Below, piece by piece: positions 1,708 through 62,336 of a stretch of 64,000 bases of DNA. The notes below the pieces were generated by a model. It searched no databases. It was given only the letters and a program-made list of their open reading frames with translations, and was not told the origin of the DNA. The stretch lies in assembly GCF_900120005.1 (NCBI RefSeq), contig NZ_LT635449.1:248001-312000 (forward strand), in the 5' to 3' direction. The DNA is from Holdemania sp. Marseille-P2844 (GTDB lineage: Bacteria; Bacillota_I; Bacilli_A; Erysipelotrichales; Erysipelotrichaceae). The number at the start of each line of letters is the position of its first letter. Position 1 is the first letter of the stretch. A program made the position numbers and the translations under genes.

Positions 1708-2607
1708 CTAAGAATGGGCAAGTTTATTATTCTGATCCGCGCTCTGCTTGTTTTGATACATTGCCTGATCAGCCAATGTAAACCAGGTTTCCCAATCCTG
1801 AATTTCCGGTTTGTATTCTACGATGCCTACGCTGATCGACATGTGATAGTCTCGCGCCGCTTCGCTGAATTGAAGCTGCGCCATTTCCTGACGGAATGCC
1901 TGAATTACCTGCGCTGCCTGTTCTTGATTTAAACCGTTAAACGTAATCAGGAATTCGTCGCCGCCAACTCGGCAGGCCCAGCCGCCATGGCTCTCCGCAC
2001 AGGTTTTCAATGCCTGCGACAGAGCTAAAATAACCCGGTCGCCCATCAAATGTCCGTACGTATCGTTGACCGCCTTGAACTGGTCAATATCTAGCAAGGC
2101 GATCGTCAGCGGCTTCTCTTCTTTCCACTCTGAAATATCCCGGTTCAGCTCATGTTCCATAAAACGCTTATTGTACAGTCCCGTATAGGAATCATGCGTC
2201 GAGAGTTCGTTCATTTTGTAAATAATGTCTGTCAACATGACGTTGTTTTTATGATCAGGATCGGTGAACAACAGATTATCTGTAACTTCACGGATCAATT
2301 CCAGCGCGTAATGATCACCCAGTTCAGTCAGCGGCACTGATTCAATCAGAAAAATCCGGTTATCCTGCGTCGTCTCCATTTTGATTATCGGCCGGTTTTC
2401 ATCTACAGCCAAACGGGATACACAGTTGCGGCAGGCACAATTACGACTCCACACCTGAAAACAATGTTCGCCGTTCGCGACCAACTGTGACTTTCTCCAT
2501 TCATGAACCTCATACGTATTCACGTCGACAATCCGGTAAAATTCAAATAACGGATGTGTCTGAATTTGTTTTTGTATAAACTGATCTGCTTTTTCCAAAT
2601 CAAACAT
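1708..2607 (-). CDS. Diguanylate cyclase (GGDEF) with N-terminal cysteine-rich sensory domain
   Basis: 299 residues from the ATG at 2607, chosen because AGGAAG lies at ribosome-site distance; an upstream in-frame ATG at 2658 has none. A GGDEF domain fills the C-terminal half, with the active-site GGDEF at residues 215-219 and the LLDIDQFKAVNDTYGH metal/substrate region at about 171-186. It should make cyclic di-GMP from two GTP. The RxxD inhibitory site that usually precedes GGDEF is absent, so product inhibition may be lacking. The N-terminal region holds Cys49, Cys57, Cys59 and Cys62 (NCACRNC), resembling the CxxC sensory domains found before GGDEF in many Firmicutes. No membrane segment is visible, so it is cytoplasmic. 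Confidence 0.85.
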   Translation of the reverse strand: MFDLEKADQFIQKQIQTHPLFEFYRIVDVNTYEVHEWRKSQLVANGEHCFQVWSRNCACRNCVSRLAVDENRPIIKMETTQDNRIFLIESVPLTELGDHYALELIREVTDNLLFTDPDHKNNVMLTDIIYKMNELSTHDSYTGLYNKRFMEHELNRDISEWKEEKPLTIALLDIDQFKAVNDTYGHLMGDRVILALSQALKTCAESHGGWACRVGGDEFLITFNGLNQEQAAQVIQAFRQEMAQLQFSEAARDYHMSISVGIVEYKPEIQDWETWFTLADQAMYQNKQSADQNNKLAHS

Positions 2608-2844
2608 CGTATTTACTTCCTTTCCTTGAAACTTCCTGTGTTTCAGCATTCCACCCACAGTAAATCAATTTATTCATTTCAATCTCATCGTTTATGCGAA
2701 TAACCTTTTCTGATCTTAAAATTCAGCTTTTAATCCTCAGTTATCAACAAGGTCAAAATATAATACCTCTTGGTTCTCATTATATCATTAAATTAATCGT
2801 GAAAGTTAAAAATTATCGCTTAATTTTCCTTTGCTTCGGAATAA

Positions 2845-2878
2845 GAAAAAGGATGAGCGTTTTGTCGCGCATCATCCT
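2845..2878 (-). terminator. Terminator of the PASTA-repeat gene
   Basis: Stem AGGATGA...TCATCCT with extra GCG/CGC pairing, followed by TTTTTC on the minus strand, 13 bases after the stop codon. The rest of the 2608-2890 interval is AT-rich and should hold the diguanylate cyclase promoter. Confidence 0.8.
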
Positions 2879-2890
2879 GATTTTCTATGT

Positions 2891-4876
2891 TTAGTTAGGT
2901 GAATAAATCTTGAATACTATTTCAGTTGATATATCTACCTCAGAACCAAATGCTACAGAAACATCTTCAAGAACACCATTTATTTTATCTGGATTATCAA
3001 TTTCGCCCGAAATTTTAATAAAGGTCAAATTATAAAAACCAGCATTATTGAACGAAAATTTAATATTTTGTACTGTTTCATCATAACTGGCACCATTATA
3101 AATTGTTTTTGGCCCATCCGGAACCTTCGCCGTTGTAACCGGCTTCGGTCCTTTCGACAAAGTCAATGTAATTTCCGTTCCCGAAGAAACAACAGTACCG
3201 GCGCCAACCGACTGATCGACAACCTGTCCTGCAGGAACATCGCTGTAATCCGACTGATAAACCTGCTTAATCGTTACGCCGTCGACAGAACAGCTGTTTG
3301 TGGAACATGGCGCGGAACCGCCAACATAATTCTTAACCGTAATCCCTTTTCCTTTAGAAACCTTACAGGTTACCGTTTTACCCGAAATGGAACAGCCGAA
3401 GGTATTGCCGGAAGCAACGCTGTCGTTAAACTCGCTGGCACCTTCTGAGAAACTCCAGCCGGCCCCGGAATTATTGGCATTTTCAATAATCTTCCGGGCT
3501 TCCGCAACCGATTTATTTTCAAAGTCGCCGGCCACCGGACTGAACTGACCTAACGATACCTTGTACCAAACCGTAGATCCTGCGGCTTTCTTGCCGGTTT
3601 CATTTTCAAGAATCGTCCCGGCCGCCTTATCGGAATACGCCGTGGAACGGGTACCCAGACTTAAACCCAAGCCGCTGATATATTTCTTGAATTCATCTTC
3701 ACTGACACCGGCTTTGTTTTCAACGGTGATTGATTTTCCCTTGGAAATCTGGAAGTTAACCGTTGTTCCCGGAGCCAGATAAGTTCCCCCGTCATATCCC
3801 TGGGAAACGATTGTTCCAACAGGCTCTGTGCTTTCTACTTCGCTGTACGTAAAGGTAAGATTGCCTTCCAGGTTATTGATCTTCTTTTTATAGCTTTCGG
3901 CATCTTCTTTCTTCTTGCCGACAAACGATTCCAGCTTGATCTTACCCAGCGAAATCTTGACTTTCACCGTGCTTCCCTGTTTCACGTCGCCCTTTTCCGG
4001 CGCGTTGGAAATGACATAGCCATATTCAATGGAGCCGCTGTACGCTTCGCTGAACTCACCGACAAGACCATTGTCATTCAGCCACTTCTTCGCTTCATCC
4101 TTGCTCATTTTCGCTAACGACTTCATCGTTACCGTTTTCCCTAACGACATCGTTACCGTGATCTTATCGCCGGTCTTGATCGTTTCCCCAGCCTTTGGAT
4201 CCTGGGAAATCACTTTGTCTTTCGCAATCTTATCACTGGCTTCTTCCTTCCAGTTGATCGTCACTTTATTCGCTTTCGCCCAGTTTGTGATCTTCGCTTT
4301 GGTATAATCGCTGAAATCCGGGACGATGATCTGTTCACCCGTTCCGTCTTTTCCCTGGGAAATCGTAAACACCAGCATCGTACTGCGCTTGATTACGGTA
4401 TCGGTCACATTGACCTTGATGAATTTTCCCTTCTCGATCTTTTCATCGACAGCGTATTCATACGTGACATCCAACAGTTTATTCGTTTCCACGAATTTCT
4501 CAATTTCTTCTTCGGTCATATCTTTGAAATCCGGCAGCGTTACTTCGACATCCGGATTCGGACCTTTCGAGAAGACAACCGTCAGAACGCTGTCTTTGTT
4601 CAGCTTCTGTTCTGAGGCAATACTCTGCGAAATCAGCTTGTCCTTATCAATGGTATCGCTGTATTCGTACTCGACTACCAACTGACTGTCACCCAGCTTA
4701 TTCTCAGTCGCCCATTTTTTGATTTCTTCGACGGTCTTCCCTGAGAAATCTTCTACCTGAATCGCTTTGCCAGGCAGCGTCAACAAAACGACTACGGCTG
4801 CGATTGTCGCGATAGCTAATACACCGACGGCACTGAGCAGCGCAATCGTCTTTTTATTCGAAAAATCTATATTCAT
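2891..4876 (-). CDS. Membrane-anchored multi-PASTA protein without a kinase domain
   Basis: 661 residues. A short cytoplasmic tail is followed by one membrane segment (about residues 10-33), then by about eight consecutive PASTA-like repeats of 60-70 residues. Repeats start near 40, 112, 184, 249, 315, 384, 448 and 513, and each ends in an SxGK/SKGP-type strand. The last ~80 residues do not fit the repeat. PASTA domains bind peptidoglycan or muropeptides and normally form the outer part of PknB-type kinases or high-molecular-weight PBPs; here no catalytic domain is attached. Four cysteines in repeats 7-8 could form disulfides. It diverges from tex and ends at its own terminator. A role in wall sensing or scaffolding is inferred. 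Confidence 0.85.
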   Translation of the reverse strand: MNIDFSNKKTIALLSAVGVLAIATIAAVVVLLTLPGKAIQVEDFSGKTVEEIKKWATENKLGDSQLVVEYEYSDTIDKDKLISQSIASEQKLNKDSVLTVVFSKGPNPDVEVTLPDFKDMTEEEIEKFVETNKLLDVTYEYAVDEKIEKGKFIKVNVTDTVIKRSTMLVFTISQGKDGTGEQIIVPDFSDYTKAKITNWAKANKVTINWKEEASDKIAKDKVISQDPKAGETIKTGDKITVTMSLGKTVTMKSLAKMSKDEAKKWLNDNGLVGEFSEAYSGSIEYGYVISNAPEKGDVKQGSTVKVKISLGKIKLESFVGKKKEDAESYKKKINNLEGNLTFTYSEVESTEPVGTIVSQGYDGGTYLAPGTTVNFQISKGKSITVENKAGVSEDEFKKYISGLGLSLGTRSTAYSDKAAGTILENETGKKAAGSTVWYKVSLGQFSPVAGDFENKSVAEARKIIENANNSGAGWSFSEGASEFNDSVASGNTFGCSISGKTVTCKVSKGKGITVKNYVGGSAPCSTNSCSVDGVTIKQVYQSDYSDVPAGQVVDQSVGAGTVVSSGTEITLTLSKGPKPVTTAKVPDGPKTIYNGASYDETVQNIKFSFNNAGFYNLTFIKISGEIDNPDKINGVLEDVSVAFGSEVDISTEIVFKIYSPN

Positions 4877-55754: not shown

Positions 55755-56842
55755 GCTTCTTCACTTCCTTTCTCCGCCGTTTCTTTCTTTTTTGACAACC
55801 AGTTCATAATGAAGATGATGCCGTTCTGCATCGCGACTAACATGATGATGGTCGAGGAGATGATCGTTGCGATATCCTTCGGAATCTGCATCGACTGCAT
55901 CAGCGGCTGCGCCACCTTCAGCAGACCGAACAACAAGCCGGCAAAGAAGATGCCGATCGCGTTGCACCCGCCGACCAGCGCGACGGCGATGCCGTCAAAG
56001 CCGTAGTTTTCCGCCGTATTCAGCACGCGTCCGTAGCCGAAGGTGCCCAAGACCATGATCGCTCCTGCCAGCCCGGCCATAACGCCGGAAATCATCATCG
56101 CATAGACGACGTTGCGTTCAACCTTCATGCCCGCATAACGTGCGCCCTCGGCATTGAAGCCGGTTGCCCGCAGACTGTAGCCGAACGTCGTCTTCTCAAT
56201 GACGATGTGATAAACAATCACCGCCAGAATGACGACCAGAATGCCCCAATGCAGGCGGGAATTATTCGTGATCTGCTTGAGAAAATCCGATTTGATCAGC
56301 GCCGAGGCCGGCAGATCCACTGTACGGGTCTGGGTTGAACCCGGCAGCGCCTTTAAGATGTAGTTGCAGAAGTACAGCGCGGCATAGTTCATCATGATCG
56401 CCGTGACGACTTCCGAGATATTCCGTTTGACTTTCAAAAAGCCAGGTAAAAAGGCCCATAATGCCCCGGCAGCGCCGCCGGCGATCAAACAGACGATCGC
56501 GTGCAGCACCGGCGGCAGCGGTACGAGAATGCCGACGACGGTCGCCGCCAGCGCCCCGACCATGACCTGACCTTCGCCGCCGATGTTGAACAAACCGGTG
56601 CGGTAAGCGAACCCGACCGCCAGACCGGTCAAAATCAGCGGCATCGAGAAGACGATAAACTCGCCGAAGTAGCGCGGGTTGATCGGTCCCGGCGCCAGGA
56701 TGTCAAAGCCGCAGAAGCTTTTGACAATCGCCGAGATCAGCAGCACCGGCGATTTCCCGCTGGCGATGACGATGATCATGCCGACTAACAGACCCAGCAG
56801 AACCGCGATTAACGGAGCTGCCAGTTTTTCTCTTTTTTTCAT
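55751..56842 (-). CDS. nupP: ABC transporter permease, nucleoside-type (NupP/YufP-like)
   Basis: 363 residues with about ten membrane helices. TGLFNIGGEGQVMVGALAATVVG and GARYAGMKVERNVVYAMMISGVMAGLAGA match the family. Second half of the channel; four-base overlap with the ATPase gene upstream. Confidence 0.92.
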   Translation of the reverse strand: MKKREKLAAPLIAVLLGLLVGMIIVIASGKSPVLLISAIVKSFCGFDILAPGPINPRYFGEFIVFSMPLILTGLAVGFAYRTGLFNIGGEGQVMVGALAATVVGILVPLPPVLHAIVCLIAGGAAGALWAFLPGFLKVKRNISEVVTAIMMNYAALYFCNYILKALPGSTQTRTVDLPASALIKSDFLKQITNNSRLHWGILVVILAVIVYHIVIEKTTFGYSLRATGFNAEGARYAGMKVERNVVYAMMISGVMAGLAGAIMVLGTFGYGRVLNTAENYGFDGIAVALVGGCNAIGIFFAGLLFGLLKVAQPLMQSMQIPKDIATIISSTIIMLVAMQNGIIFIMNWLSKKKETAEKGSEEA

Positions 56843-58371
56843 GCTTCGCCAACCCCCTTCCGGATCGAACCGGACATCATCAGACCCAGCTCGTTTTCAT
56901 CCGTCTCTTCCGCTTTGACCCAGCCGGTCAGCTCGCCGTTGAACATCACGGCAATTTGATCAGACAGCGCCAGCACTTCGTCCAACTCCAGCGAAACAAG
57001 CAGAATTGCCTTGCCGTTGTCGCGTTCCTGCACGATCCGTTTATGGATGTACTCGATCGCGCCGACATCCAGTCCCCGCGTCGGCTGAACGACGATCAGC
57101 AGCTTTGGACTGCGGTCGATCTCCCGGGCGATGATCGCTTTCTGCTGATTGCCGCCGGACATGCTGCGGGTAATCGTTTCCCGGCCCTGACCGCTGCGGA
57201 CGTCGAACATTTCGATCAGTTCGTCGGTTTTCCTGTCGATCGCCGCCATCTGAAGCAGGCCGTTCTTCGCATACGGCGCTTCGTTATAGCTGTGAATAAC
57301 CATGTTCTCTTTCAGTTTGAAATCCAGAATCAAACCATGCTTATGCCGATCTTCCGGAATATGGCCCATCCCGGCTTCGATCCGGTGCTTGATTGAGCTG
57401 TGCGTGATATCCTTGCCGTTAAGCAGCACCTTGCCGCCTTCCGCCTTCGCCAGTCCGGTCAGCGCATACACCAGCTCCGTCTGTCCGTTGCCGTCGATGC
57501 CTGCCACGCCGACAATTTCACCGGCGCGCACCTGCAGACTGAAATCCTTCACGCCTAAAAGCCCCTTGGAGTTTTTGACTTTCAAATGCTCGATCTCCAG
57601 CACGACCTTGCCGGGCTGCTGAGCTTGCTTCTCAACGCCGAAATCGACTTCCCGGCCGACCATCAGCTTTGCCATTTCCTCTTCCGAAGTTTCCGCGACC
57701 TGAATCGTCCCCATGCACCGGCCGCGCCGCAATACGGTGCACACATCGGCGACTTCCTTAATTTCCTTCAATTTATGCGTGATTAAAATAATCGTCTTGC
57801 CTTCCTTGGTCAGATTGCGCATGATTTCCATCAGCTCATGGATTTCCTGCGGCGTCAGCACCGCCGTCGGTTCGTCAAAGATCAAAATGTCCGCATTGCG
57901 GTAAAGCATCTTCAAAATTTCGACGCGCTGCTGCATGCCGACCGAGATATTCTGAATCTTGGCATACGGGTCGACGTTCAGCCCGTACATTTCGCTCAGC
58001 TGCTGAATCCGCTGCGCCGCCGATTTGATATCCGTGGTATAGAATTTTGTTTTCGGTTCCAGTCCGAGAATAATATTTTCAGTGACCGTAAAGCATTCTA
58101 CCAATTTAAAATGCTGATGCACCATCCCGATCCCCAGGCTGTTGGCGACATTCGGGTCTGTTATTTTTACTTCCTGTCCCCGCACTTTAATCGTGCCGCG
58201 GGTCGGCTGATACAGACCGAATAAAATCGACATCAGCGTGGATTTTCCGGCCCCGTTTTCTCCCAAGAGAGCATGAATGCTTTTTTCCTCTACTTGAAGA
58301 GTCACATCGTCGTTGGCGCGGATGCCTGGAAAGTCCTTGGTGATGTTGAGCATCTCTATCGCATAACTCAT
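56839..58371 (-). CDS. nupO: ABC transporter ATP-binding protein with two ATPase domains, nucleoside-type (NupO/YufO-like)
   Basis: 510 residues, two tandem ATPase domains. The first has Walker A GENGAGKST and signature ISVGMQQRVEIL. The second has a degenerate Walker A (GIDGNGQTE) and MSGGNQQKAI, the asymmetry usual in sugar/nucleoside importers. Powers uptake of nucleosides bound by the BMP lipoprotein, whose gene lies 2.9 kb upstream beyond another transporter. An extended -10 promoter precedes it. Confidence 0.92.
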   Translation of the reverse strand: MSYAIEMLNITKDFPGIRANDDVTLQVEEKSIHALLGENGAGKSTLMSILFGLYQPTRGTIKVRGQEVKITDPNVANSLGIGMVHQHFKLVECFTVTENIILGLEPKTKFYTTDIKSAAQRIQQLSEMYGLNVDPYAKIQNISVGMQQRVEILKMLYRNADILIFDEPTAVLTPQEIHELMEIMRNLTKEGKTIILITHKLKEIKEVADVCTVLRRGRCMGTIQVAETSEEEMAKLMVGREVDFGVEKQAQQPGKVVLEIEHLKVKNSKGLLGVKDFSLQVRAGEIVGVAGIDGNGQTELVYALTGLAKAEGGKVLLNGKDITHSSIKHRIEAGMGHIPEDRHKHGLILDFKLKENMVIHSYNEAPYAKNGLLQMAAIDRKTDELIEMFDVRSGQGRETITRSMSGGNQQKAIIAREIDRSPKLLIVVQPTRGLDVGAIEYIHKRIVQERDNGKAILLVSLELDEVLALSDQIAVMFNGELTGWVKAEETDENELGLMMSGSIRKGVGEA

Positions 58372-58397
58372 TATTTTCCCTCCATTAACTATCCAAA

Positions 58398-58403
58398 ATT
58401 ATA
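58398..58403 (-). promoter_or_regulatory. Extended -10 promoter of the nucleoside ABC operon
   Basis: TGTTATAAT on the minus strand (TG one base before TATAAT at 58398-58403), 27 bases before the ATG; no good -35. Confidence 0.55.
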
Positions 58404-58574
58404 ACATACTTCCCTCCTCTCCCGGTGGCTTTTTTTGCGTTTTCCGCTAATAAATGTGACATTTGACACCTGAGCAGTGCTTGTGAACAGAAAAAAGAAA
58501 TCTGAGCGCTGGAAGACTTCGGCTTCTTTCCCCGCTTCAGGCAATTCAGTAAAGCAACGTTGGACTTCTGATTT

Positions 58575-59912
58575 TCAGCCTGTCCGGGGCGCCAGCAGTC
58601 TTCGCAGAAAACGGCGATTAAACGCGGCAGCCGCAAAAAAATAAATACAATACAAAATCCCAAAGCATAAAACAAACACGCCGCCGATCTGAAACAGAAC
58701 ATCGGGCATCGCCGGAAGCAGCATCGCATTCAATTTGAAATTGACAAAGGGCGCGGCAAGCCCCAGCGAAACAATCCCCATGCCCATGGGCAGACTCAAA
58801 CCTTCGATAACCTGATAATCAAGCCAGCGGTTCAGCGCTTTCTCACTTTTGCCCAAAGCGTGCAGAATCATAAGCGCGCGCCTCTGCCGCCGCAGTTGAA
58901 GTAGCTGCGTTAAGGAAAGCATTGAAAAATAAAGAACCAGAAAGATCAGTCCGATATTGATCTGCAAGAACCCCATCCAGCGCTGCGTCTGCGGATCACC
59001 AACAACCAGCCCCTCCGCAAACAACAGCGTGCCGAAACAAAACGCTGTAAACGCGAAGATCAGACAGACACAGAACACCGTGTTAAGAAGTGCTCCGCTT
59101 TTCGCCCCGCCGCTGAATTCCGCGATCTTCAGCAAACGGTCATTTTCAAGCAGCGCAGAGGGGCAGGTGCGGCGCAGACCTGAACCTGCGGCATAGACAA
59201 ACTTGTAAAAAGCGGCAACGCTGAGCAGCAGGGGGATCGCGATGAACGCGATGGAGAACATCATGATTTCCTCGTTTCCGCGAACCAGCAGGATCAGCAG
59301 GAACACATAGACCGCCAGACTGACCAGAAAGATTGTCTGCCACCGCTTTCGCTGATCCGGATTCAAAGGCGAATTCCGCCGCTGCTCGGCGAACAGCTGA
59401 CAAATCTGCAGGCGCGATAATTTCCGGTAAACCGGATAAGCGGATAAAAGTTGGGCCAGCAGAAACCAGACGGCCGTCTGCAGCGCGCTCTGGCCAAACA
59501 GCGGCAGCATGTTGGCGAAGATCGCCCCCTCCGGCAGCGAAAAGAGCAGGATCCAACCGGCGCCACAGCCCAGCCAGATTCCCAACAGGCAGCAGAACGC
59601 TCCGATCCATCCCAATTCCAAAAGAAGCAGCTGGATCAACCGGCGTTTTTCCATTCCCATTAAAAGGTAAACGGCCAGCTCCTGAGCCCGCTGCGCCACG
59701 ATGAACTGATTGAGAACCCCGACCAGCAGCACCAGAATTGAAACGATGAGAAGCGGCAGCGCCGCCGTCTGAAATCCGGCCTGCCTCTGTCCTAACGCTG
59801 CAACACAATGGGAAAAACACAACAGTGCGGCCAGAATGATCACCGTCATCACATAGACAAAATAATCGCCGGCACTGCGGCAGGCGTTACGCCACGCTAA
59901 TTTAAAAACCAT
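58575..59912 (-). CDS. FtsX-like ABC exporter permease
   Basis: 445 residues, about ten membrane helices. It starts KLAWRNACRSAGDYFVYV, like BceB-type permeases; the FtsX-type core appears as paired helices with AQRAQELAVYLLMGMEKRRLIQLL and a second copy near LRRQRRALMILHALGKSEKALNRW. No large extracellular domain, unlike BceB. Its start overlaps the end of the XRE-ABC ATPase gene by 11 bases, so the two proteins work together. Substrate unknown; peptide export or antimicrobial-peptide defence is typical for the group. Confidence 0.82.
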   Translation of the reverse strand: MVFKLAWRNACRSAGDYFVYVMTVIILAALLCFSHCVAALGQRQAGFQTAALPLLIVSILVLLVGVLNQFIVAQRAQELAVYLLMGMEKRRLIQLLLLELGWIGAFCCLLGIWLGCGAGWILLFSLPEGAIFANMLPLFGQSALQTAVWFLLAQLLSAYPVYRKLSRLQICQLFAEQRRNSPLNPDQRKRWQTIFLVSLAVYVFLLILLVRGNEEIMMFSIAFIAIPLLLSVAAFYKFVYAAGSGLRRTCPSALLENDRLLKIAEFSGGAKSGALLNTVFCVCLIFAFTAFCFGTLLFAEGLVVGDPQTQRWMGFLQINIGLIFLVLYFSMLSLTQLLQLRRQRRALMILHALGKSEKALNRWLDYQVIEGLSLPMGMGIVSLGLAAPFVNFKLNAMLLPAMPDVLFQIGGVFVLCFGILYCIYFFAAAAFNRRFLRRLLAPRTG

Positions 59913-60978
59913 TCTCCGCCGCCTTTCTTACCGATCCCATCGCGTCCAGAATGCGGGTAAAAAACGCCTGTGGGCTTAAACTTCCCCGCTCGATCACCTT
60001 TCGCAGCTGACCATCGTGCATCAACAGGATGCGGTCGCAATAGCTGGCGGATAAAACGTCGTGAGTCGCCATCAGAATCGTCGCCCCCTCCCCGCGCAGC
60101 ATCGTCAACGTTTTCAACAGCGCTTTCGCCGCCTGACTGTCTAACGCCCCGGTCGGCTCATCGGCCAGAATCAGCGTGGGCTGCGTCGCGATCGCGCGGG
60201 CGCAGGCACAGCGCTGCCGCTGTCCCCCAGAAACCTCGCTGGGAAAATGCTGCAGAATCTCAGAGATCCCCAGCCTGGCAGCCCAGTGTTCCACAATCCC
60301 TTTAATTTCAGTTTTCGGCGTTTGCTTGATCGTGAGCGCCAGCATCATATTTTCCCGGATTGTCAGCGTTTCCAGCAAATTGTATTCCTGAAAAATGAAT
60401 CCGAGATGATCCCGGCGAAAAGCCGCCAGATCTGCTTCCGATAATTCCGCCAGATCCTGCCCATCCAGCTCAATCGTTCCGCCGCTGGGCTTATCCATCG
60501 TCGCGATCAGATTCAATAACGTCGACTTTCCGCAGCCGGAAGCCCCCATGATTCCGACAAAGCTGCCTTTGTCCACCGTGAAGCTGACGTCCCGCACCGC
60601 CTGCGTCAGTACGCCGTCATTCTCATAAACCTTGGCGACATGCTCCAGCCGCAAGACCGGACAAGATAAGCTGGACTTGTCAGCCGGCACCTGCTCATCC
60701 CGGCCCAGCCATCCGGCGATCACCTCCAGCAGCACCTGATCTGTTTTTTCCATTAAATCTTCTGCACGGATCAATTCGCCCGAAAATAATTCGCTCAGCG
60801 TGATTCCCAACGCCTCGCTTAACGGCGTCAGCAATGCGTAATCCGGCAGCGATTTCCCCGTTTCCCATTTCGACACCGCTTTATCGGTAATCCCCAAGAC
60901 CTCGGCCAGCTGACTTTGCGTCCAGCCTTTTTCCTTTCTGCGGATAGCGATGAAGCCGCCGATTTTTATCTGATCCAT
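59902..60978 (-). CDS. XRE DNA-binding domain fused to an ABC exporter ATPase
   Basis: 358 residues. Residues 5-65 form an XRE/Cro-type helix-turn-helix (IGGFIAIRRKEKGWTQSQLA, then ITDKAVSKWETGKSLPD). A linker (about 70-105) leads to a complete MacB/LolD-type ATPase: Walker A GASGCGKST (145-153), Q-loop Gln197, signature VSGGQRQR (249-256), Walker B LILADEP (269-275), His switch in MATHD. Both halves look intact in one frame with a proper ribosome site (GAGGAT) before the XRE part, so the fusion is real and not a reading error. It could couple transport state to transcription of its own operon; a palindrome lies in its promoter. Confidence 0.9.
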   Translation of the reverse strand: MDQIKIGGFIAIRRKEKGWTQSQLAEVLGITDKAVSKWETGKSLPDYALLTPLSEALGITLSELFSGELIRAEDLMEKTDQVLLEVIAGWLGRDEQVPADKSSLSCPVLRLEHVAKVYENDGVLTQAVRDVSFTVDKGSFVGIMGASGCGKSTLLNLIATMDKPSGGTIELDGQDLAELSEADLAAFRRDHLGFIFQEYNLLETLTIRENMMLALTIKQTPKTEIKGIVEHWAARLGISEILQHFPSEVSGGQRQRCACARAIATQPTLILADEPTGALDSQAAKALLKTLTMLRGEGATILMATHDVLSASYCDRILLMHDGQLRKVIERGSLSPQAFFTRILDAMGSVRKAAENGF

Positions 60979-61025
60979 ACTTTATCCTCGCTTTCATCGT
61001 TTTCATTGTAGCGCAGCACGCCAAA

Positions 61026-61053
61026 AGGAACACCTACCAACGGTAGAGTTCCT
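61026..61053 (-). promoter_or_regulatory. Palindromic operator candidate for the XRE-ABC gene
   Basis: AGGAAC, two bases, CTACC, three bases, GGTAG, one base, GTTCCT: a 28-base near-perfect dyad, 48 bases upstream of the start, at or just upstream of the -35 for a TACAAT -10 near 61008. Confidence 0.55.
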
Positions 61054-61174
61054 CGTTTTCCACCTGTTTTCTCTCTTCTGCCGCGTCGGTTTGGGATAAA
61101 AACCGATTGGATTTCTGACAAAAGTCCTCTTCCGATCAGAGACCTGTAACCTTCATGAAAGAGTTCAACTTTTG

Positions 61175-61204
61175 TCAAAAAGAAAGGAGAGCCTGCGCTC
61201 TCCT
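61175..61204 (-). terminator. Terminator of the BMP lipoprotein gene
   Basis: GGAGAGC-GCAG-GCTCTCC followed by TTTCTTTTT on the minus strand. It separates the BMP gene from the XRE-ABC operon. Confidence 0.85.
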
Positions 61205-61224
61205 CTCACAAATTGAAAATCAGC

Positions 61225-62292
61225 TTATTTCTGAACTGCTTCGTCAACGACGATCTCGCCGGACTTGATCTTCGCTAACGCGTCTTCCATCGCCTTGACG
61301 ATTTCATCAGACAGGTTCGGGTTTTCCTTCGGGAAGCCGATGCCGTCATTGCTTGCGTCAAAGACCATTGTTCCACCCTGGAATGTGCCGTTCTTGACCT
61401 GTTCTGCGAAATAGTAAGCCGCTGTATCCACACGCTTCAGCGCAGAAGTCAGAACTGCGGATTTGCCGTCAGACATCAGACCTGCGTCATACTGGTCGGA
61501 GTCAACGCCGATCGCCCAGACGTCTTCGCCAGCTTCACGGCGGTCCTTCGCTTCTTTAATCAGACCGTTGCCCGTTGCGCCCGCTGCATGGAAAATAACA
61601 TACGCGCCGTCATTGTACTGCTTCTGAGCCAAGGTCGAGCCTTTGCCCGGATCGTCAAATGCGTTGGCATAATCCGTCAGCACTTCGATCGCCGGATCGA
61701 CGCTGGCAACACCCTGCTTGTAGCCCGCTTCAAAACGTTCGATGATCGGGTTTTCAACGCCGCCGATAAATCCGACTTTCGTCTTGCCCGCTTCTTTCGC
61801 CTTCATGGCTGCGGCAACACCGACCAGATAAGAAGGCTGCTGCTCTTTAAAGACTGCGGAAGCAACGTTTGGTTTGTCAACTTCCGTATCAATGATAACG
61901 AACTTCTGATCCGGATACAGATCGGCAACTTCTTTCATCGCATCTTCAAACAGGAAGCCCGGAGCTTCGATCAGATCTTTCTTTTGATCCGCGAAGGTGC
62001 TCAGATTCGGGATGTAATCCGCGTCCGCCGAGGACTGCAGGTAGCCGTAGCAATCTTCGCTCATCTTGTTGTCTTCCGCGAATTTAACTACGCCTTCCCA
62101 AGTACCCTGGTTGAAGGACTTGTCGTCGATACCGCCCAAGTCGGTAACTAATCCGATGGTAATCGTGCAGCCGGTGTTTTCACCGTCTGTGTTTGCGTCA
62201 GCGCTTGGTGTCGGTGTAGCCGTTCCTCCGCCATTGTTGGAACAGCCGGCAACCATCAGCAGCGCTAAAGCAAAGGTCAGCAATTTTTTCAT
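61225..62292 (-). CDS. nupN: BMP-family nucleoside-binding lipoprotein (NupN/TmpC-like)
   Basis: 355 residues from the ATG at 62292, which has GGAGGG upstream; an earlier in-frame ATG lies before that site. Lipobox VAGC at about 17-20. Type I periplasmic-binding fold of the BMP/PnrA family: LVTDLGGIDDKSFNQGTWEGV and GVDSDQYD are typical. Captures nucleosides for the NupOPQ-type importer encoded downstream. Its own promoter and terminator make it a single-gene unit, which allows higher expression than the membrane parts. Confidence 0.92.
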   Translation of the reverse strand: MKKLLTFALALLMVAGCSNNGGGTATPTPSADANTDGENTGCTITIGLVTDLGGIDDKSFNQGTWEGVVKFAEDNKMSEDCYGYLQSSADADYIPNLSTFADQKKDLIEAPGFLFEDAMKEVADLYPDQKFVIIDTEVDKPNVASAVFKEQQPSYLVGVAAAMKAKEAGKTKVGFIGGVENPIIERFEAGYKQGVASVDPAIEVLTDYANAFDDPGKGSTLAQKQYNDGAYVIFHAAGATGNGLIKEAKDRREAGEDVWAIGVDSDQYDAGLMSDGKSAVLTSALKRVDTAAYYFAEQVKNGTFQGGTMVFDASNDGIGFPKENPNLSDEIVKAMEDALAKIKSGEIVVDEAVQK

Positions 62293-62336
62293 TTTCTTTC
62301 CCTCCATTGCTTTGTGCAAGCTATGCTTACAGTATA

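Follow-up and report, generated by a model that had tools for sequence, protein, structure and literature searches.

An ABC transporter ATPase with its own helix-turn-helix domain as the probable core of a self-regulating two-gene cassette in Holdemania and Lachnospiraceae

Can the motor of an ABC transporter also act as the transcription factor of its own operon? The question is raised by a gene in a window of 64,000 nucleotides (the whole stretch of DNA analysed) from the 3.68 Mb genome of a gut bacterium of the Holdemania lineage. The gene (59902-60978, minus strand, as are all features of the protein, permease and promoter given below) encodes 358 aa in a single open frame with no internal stops. 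Pfam places a complete HTH_3 helix-turn-helix (HTH) at residues 11-64 (E 5.7e-15; 55.5 bits against a curated cut-off of 23) and an ABC_tran domain at residues 129-276 (E 6e-35). In the predicted structure, five HTH helices lead into a long helix, from which a flexible segment runs on to a BceA-like domain. The HTH_3 domain (60787-60948; for residues 1-70 the block-wise pLDDT of the model is about 78-96) contains the recognition helix, residues 32-39 (DKAVSKWE, 60862-60885), and is joined by a linker of helix 72-91 and flexible residues ~92-106 (60658-60783) to a BceA-type nucleotide-binding domain, residues 108-330 (59989-60657). A C-terminal BceA-like extension with a helix at residues 336-356 completes the chain (59905-59988), and the match to BceA 7tcg reaches about residue 349. 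None of the matches listed in the structure search was a solved chain spanning both HTH and ATPase, and a search of a defence library returned generic ATPase or HTH matches only.

The first-pass annotation of this DNA had reported an intact Cro-type HTH and an intact ATPase in one protein. The frame is indeed unbroken, and homologues 56-95% identical across their full length keep both domains; the fusion is therefore neither an assembly artefact nor a chance event, possibilities also ruled out by the number of aligned members, their low dN/dS and their descent as a single clade. In the alignment of 15 full-length sequences (one other copy is cut by a prophage), the residues of the Walker A, Q-loop, signature, Walker B and H-loop motifs are invariant, as are most of those of the recognition helix (D32-K33-A34-x-S36-K37-W38-E39). 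Average identity among members is 89% in the recognition region (residues 20-46), 78% in the HTH and 67% in the ATPase. With dN/dS of 0.04-0.09 for the HTH part (three close pairs), close to the 0.07-0.12 of the ATPase part, the HTH is, judging from these ratios, under purifying selection.

Sixteen further copies of the fused gene were found, in Holdemania, another Erysipelotrichaceae genome and Lachnospiraceae. Full-length fusions are present in Holdemania (L009 and L010, the latter the same as L050), in the other Erysipelotrichaceae genome (G335, L120), and in Herbinix, Anaerocolumna and other Lachnospiraceae/Clostridiaceae genomes and MAGs (L038-L042, L137-L143). The fusion occurs in 2/392 of a sample of the window's phylum (host genome counted), 9/397 of a Lachnospiraceae sample (its centre genome counted) and 1/391 of a Clostridia class sample, the one being the centre genome itself. 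Profile scores separate fusions (560-692 bits) from the best unfused ATPases (about 352-364), with none between in these searches, and when 46 ATPase domains are placed in a tree, those of the fusions fall into one clade, with one change needed (support 90/87). Within it, L120 of the Erysipelotrichaceae groups with L041 of the Lachnospiraceae (99/97), which indicates horizontal transfer. The fusion and permease genes stay paired across unrelated neighbourhoods, while the flanking genes vary by lineage. The top plasmid and phage matches by tblastn were ATPase-only (79 plasmid records and one phage record of more than 80% coverage lay outside the set that was read), and the viral HTH matches L150, L152, L153 and L155 were not ABC fusions. 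Searches of open-licence PMC papers turned up no account of a fusion between an HTH and an ABC ATPase; prior reports elsewhere are possible.

The sister of the fused clade, joined at 99/96, is L079, an unfused ATPase (59% identical) that is encoded with a short permease of 427 aa (2400-4451 of its locus); neither operator nor regulator was found nearby. The HTH is therefore dispensable for that transporter type, a point against the self-regulating cassette proposed below. L079 may be a pre-fusion intermediate or a case of HTH loss, and it hints that the permease shed its extracellular domain before the ATPase acquired the HTH.

What kind of transporter does the fused ATPase drive? The ATPase had been called MacB-type, an assignment that we revise. 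Its best solved match is BceA (7tcg_B, 304 bits over profile positions 102-349, against 196 bits to MacB), and the BceA-family structure match (8g4c_B; TMt 0.94) has 44% identity. The proposed coupling to an FtsX-like permease holds: the adjoining gene (58575-59912), whose start overlaps the end of the fusion gene by 11 bases, encodes a permease of 445 aa from the FtsX superfamily (PF02687) that is related to BceB. Its solved sequence matches consist of BceB alone (7tcg_A, E 2.3e-12), and BceAB structures were its sole fold-search matches with E below 0.001 (7tch_A, E 2.3e-8, TMq 0.74). The model, of moderate confidence (mean pLDDT 74), shows about ten long helices. Strong permease matches (>430 bits) are the partners of fused genes plus one degraded locus (G797), and the next relatives are BceB-like proteins that score at most about 140 bits and align at most over about positions 1-293. 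In the degraded copy (L162, 1498-3421) a stop codon interrupts the permease, and the ATPase start lies beyond the stretch read.

BceAB transporters have as their hallmark a large extracellular domain, 150-250 aa long, that is placed between helices 7 and 8 (PMC12484072), and these transporters interact with a two-component system that is usually encoded alongside (PMC10314905). We took a Bce module to comprise a BceA-family ATPase, a 10-helix BceB-like permease, this extracellular domain, a two-component system and protection against peptide antibiotics of the lipid II cycle. The cassette has the first two; it lacks an attached two-component system, and by model and family lengths the fusion partner permeases lack the large extracellular domain. 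Helices 7 and 8 (residues 270-297 and 307-342) are separated by about 10 residues in the model, and the family measures about 440 aa against 650-750 aa for most of its BceB-like next relatives. The transporter is therefore BceAB-derived and not BceAB-type, since it is missing the domain by which that class is defined (PMC12484072). Peptide antibiotics are a possible substrate by descent from BceAB; the BceAB domain that sets specificity is missing here.

The strongest evidence comes from upstream of the gene. The palindrome ACTCTACCgttGGTAGGTGT, or a close variant of it, precedes all 17 fused genes, so that a conserved palindrome at the gene's own promoter, the property sought in an XRE regulator, was found in every member. 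In the window the predicted operator ACTCTACCGTTGGTAGGTGT occupies 61030-61049, inside the stretch that had been proposed for a gel shift (61000-61080). Between Holdemania and the other lineages, identity is 89% in 22 operator bases and 28-32% in the flanks. Perfect matches number one per genome in seven genomes (the host and six other member genomes), always upstream of the fusion gene, and a scan of the host for a wider regulon, with up to two mismatches, found only this one site. Upstream of 133 unfused relatives (up to 450 bases) the best match had at least four mismatches. Near the solo HTH genes of the host (L189-L191; HTH about 39-44% identical), no similar palindrome was found. Because the palindrome is present in 17 of 17 members, occurs once per genome and is absent from the 133 unfused relatives, the HTH very probably is a working autoregulator of its own operon. 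The cassette has no DNA-binding domain other than this HTH, and that a dedicated site moves with it constitutes strong indirect evidence that the HTH binds there.

The promoter has a distinctive layout. A predicted, near-consensus -10 hexamer (TACAAT, 61005-61010) starts 39 bases from the operator start, a spacing of 39-40 bases that recurs in 15 of the 17 members, and the palindrome is centred at about -42/-43 relative to the predicted start, which lies near 60998. The -35-like hexamer (TGTTCC, 61027-61032) is a poor match and is overlapped by the operator; in all members this position gives 2-4 matches of 6 and is taken up by the nearly invariant operator bases TGT. A near-consensus -10, a poor -35 and a site at -42/-43 make up the textbook layout of a class-II activator, as for lambda CI at PRM. 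A terminator-like hairpin (61182-61207, minus strand) comes after the upstream bmpA, and therefore the fusion and permease pair is probably its own transcription unit.

From these elements we consider it rather probable that the locus is a self-regulating two-gene transporter cassette, in which DNA binding would be linked to the state of the ATPase and permease and would replace flux sensing by BceS/BceR. Two fused ATPases would dock on one BceB-like permease (the BceA2B stoichiometry of the known BceAB complex), and the two HTH domains of such a complex would correspond to the palindrome's two half-sites. The conserved site strongly indicates that the paired HTHs recognise the one operator that precedes the cassette. 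Binding may depend on whether the ATPase is docked to the permease or cycling on it; the activity of the transporter would then set its expression, in place of BceS/BceR. A point against this model is that an HTH tethered to the membrane must reach the chromosome, as those of CadC and ToxR do. A bolder version, in which the ATPase would be a conformationally gated transcription factor whose paired HTHs meet the operator only in a particular nucleotide or permease state, its activity being read as transcription, is one that we advance tentatively and at somewhat less than even weight. As to the direction of control, activation from -42/-43 is slightly favoured and has about an even chance of being correct, and repression by covering the -35 falls a little short of that. 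The earlier idea of a sensor-repressor-motor thus survives in part: regulator and motor do share one chain, but repression is only one of two readings of the site, the geometry fitting a class-II activator equally well or better.

A specific form of repression nevertheless deserves weight as a possible, if less favoured, account. The resting transporter or the free ATPase would bind the operator, cover the -35 and shut the operon until engagement with substrate releases it. Most small XRE proteins with a site in their own promoter act as repressors, the P22 C2 repressor is among the nearest solved relatives of the HTH by sequence, and the operator does overlap the -35-like hexamer. However, even an unoccupied promoter would be weak, given its poor -35 in every member, and the operator fills the -35 place with its centre at the position of a class-II activator.

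Simple autoregulation by the HTH, with no modulation by ATPase or permease and with the fusion ensuring only co-expression and dimerisation, is unlikely in our view. It would suit the end of the linker, where residues 96-107 are flexible, of low pLDDT and only 19% identical on average (59% for residues 66-95); as a counter-point to gating, flexibility over residues 92-106 could leave the HTH mechanically uncoupled. Against it, the linker helix 72-91 keeps its length and part of its sequence (E77, K78 and L83 are invariant in 15 sequences), and the cassette encodes no sensor besides the transporter. That the palindrome instead serves some other regulator of the host, or forms a hairpin or terminator in RNA, with the HTH a relic or a protein-protein domain, is very improbable: a terminator scan did pick up a weak hairpin there, but it lies upstream of the predicted -10 and therefore outside the operon's own transcript (a main role as terminator was rejected), the upstream genes vary and are divergent in several loci, the site is unique per genome and moves with the cassette between Lachnospiraceae and Erysipelotrichaceae, and the dN/dS of the HTH is low.

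The self-regulating cassette that we favour is also consistent with what surrounds it. It splits a cluster at 56839-62319, with bmpA (61225-62319) on one side and, on the other, the nucleoside-transporter genes presumed to be its partners (56839-58371 onward). The gene order of the window recurs in Holdemania massiliensis AP2 (L050); in a congener (G001), the ATPase gene of the nucleoside transporter comes straight after bmpA, with no cassette between. The pair has either been inserted in the Holdemania lineage or been lost in G001. The locus in the window has no two-component system, nor is one attached to any other fusion locus for which long flanks were read, in agreement with the earlier proposal that a separate regulator or two-component system had been replaced. 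Genes for a response regulator and kinase accompany unfused relatives such as L045 and L064. The host itself has a canonical four-gene system (L189: response regulator, kinase, BceA and a 701-aa permease), so the fused cassette is an alternative design in the same cell; a second BceA-like gene of the host is found at L003. At L042 (1322-3075), genes for a kinase with its response regulator and for another ABC system lie beside the fusion in divergent orientation, and are probably a separate system.

The cassette resembles several known systems in part. Like the BceAB-RS bacitracin module of B. subtilis, it pairs a BceA-family ATPase with a 10-helix BceB-like permease in adjacent genes and probably shares its auto-inducing logic, but it has no attached BceR/BceS, carries an N-terminal HTH on the ATPase, and its permease of about 440 aa lacks the 200-250 aa extracellular domain of BceB (PMC10314905, PMC12484072). 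With MacB, LolCDE and FtsEX it shares an ATPase and a permease of the FtsX-like superfamily; the similarity is below that to BceA and these systems have no HTH. MacB, moreover, joins its ATPase and a 4-helix permease with a periplasmic domain in one polypeptide, whereas the ~ten-helix permease here is a separate gene. XRE/HTH_3 repressors such as P22 C2 have the same HTH family and a palindromic operator at their own promoter, but are not fused to a complete ABC ATPase. CadC and ToxR are membrane-bound one-component regulators with a tethered DNA-binding domain and no phosphorelay. The cassette would work in the same manner, although its HTH sits on a transport ATPase and not a dedicated sensor, and is of XRE and not OmpR type. 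It is a new, horizontally mobile variant of the Bce-type module, in which a motor-borne HTH replaces kinase and response regulator. Bce flux sensing is thought to run from transporter to kinase to response regulator, and here both intermediates appear to be absent, with motor and DNA-binding domain in one chain and one predicted target site. If this is true, direct control of transcription by ABC cycling could be addressed with no more than the fusion protein, its permease and a site of 20 bases, and the cassette would be a compact candidate for synthetic sensors.

Two further features were seen among the other loci. In L137, L140, L141, L142 and L144, a second, imperfect palindrome (CTACC-N3-GGTAG) lies 39-40 bases, or about four helical turns, upstream of the main operator; these sites are weak against shuffles and suggestive of cooperative binding. 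The viral operator matches L145-L149 kept the fixed arms around unrelated centres and were taken as chance; L144 (IMG/VR 3300035424_000194), the one viral match that was read, contains the fused gene. Here (about 546-2840, reversed) a prophage-like element lies within the HTH-ABC gene and truncates it, inserted directly after the Walker B/D-loop codons (..LADEPTGA|). The element has a recombinase-type gene of 478 aa, serine-recombinase-like by eye, and the fused gene seems to have served as its attachment site.
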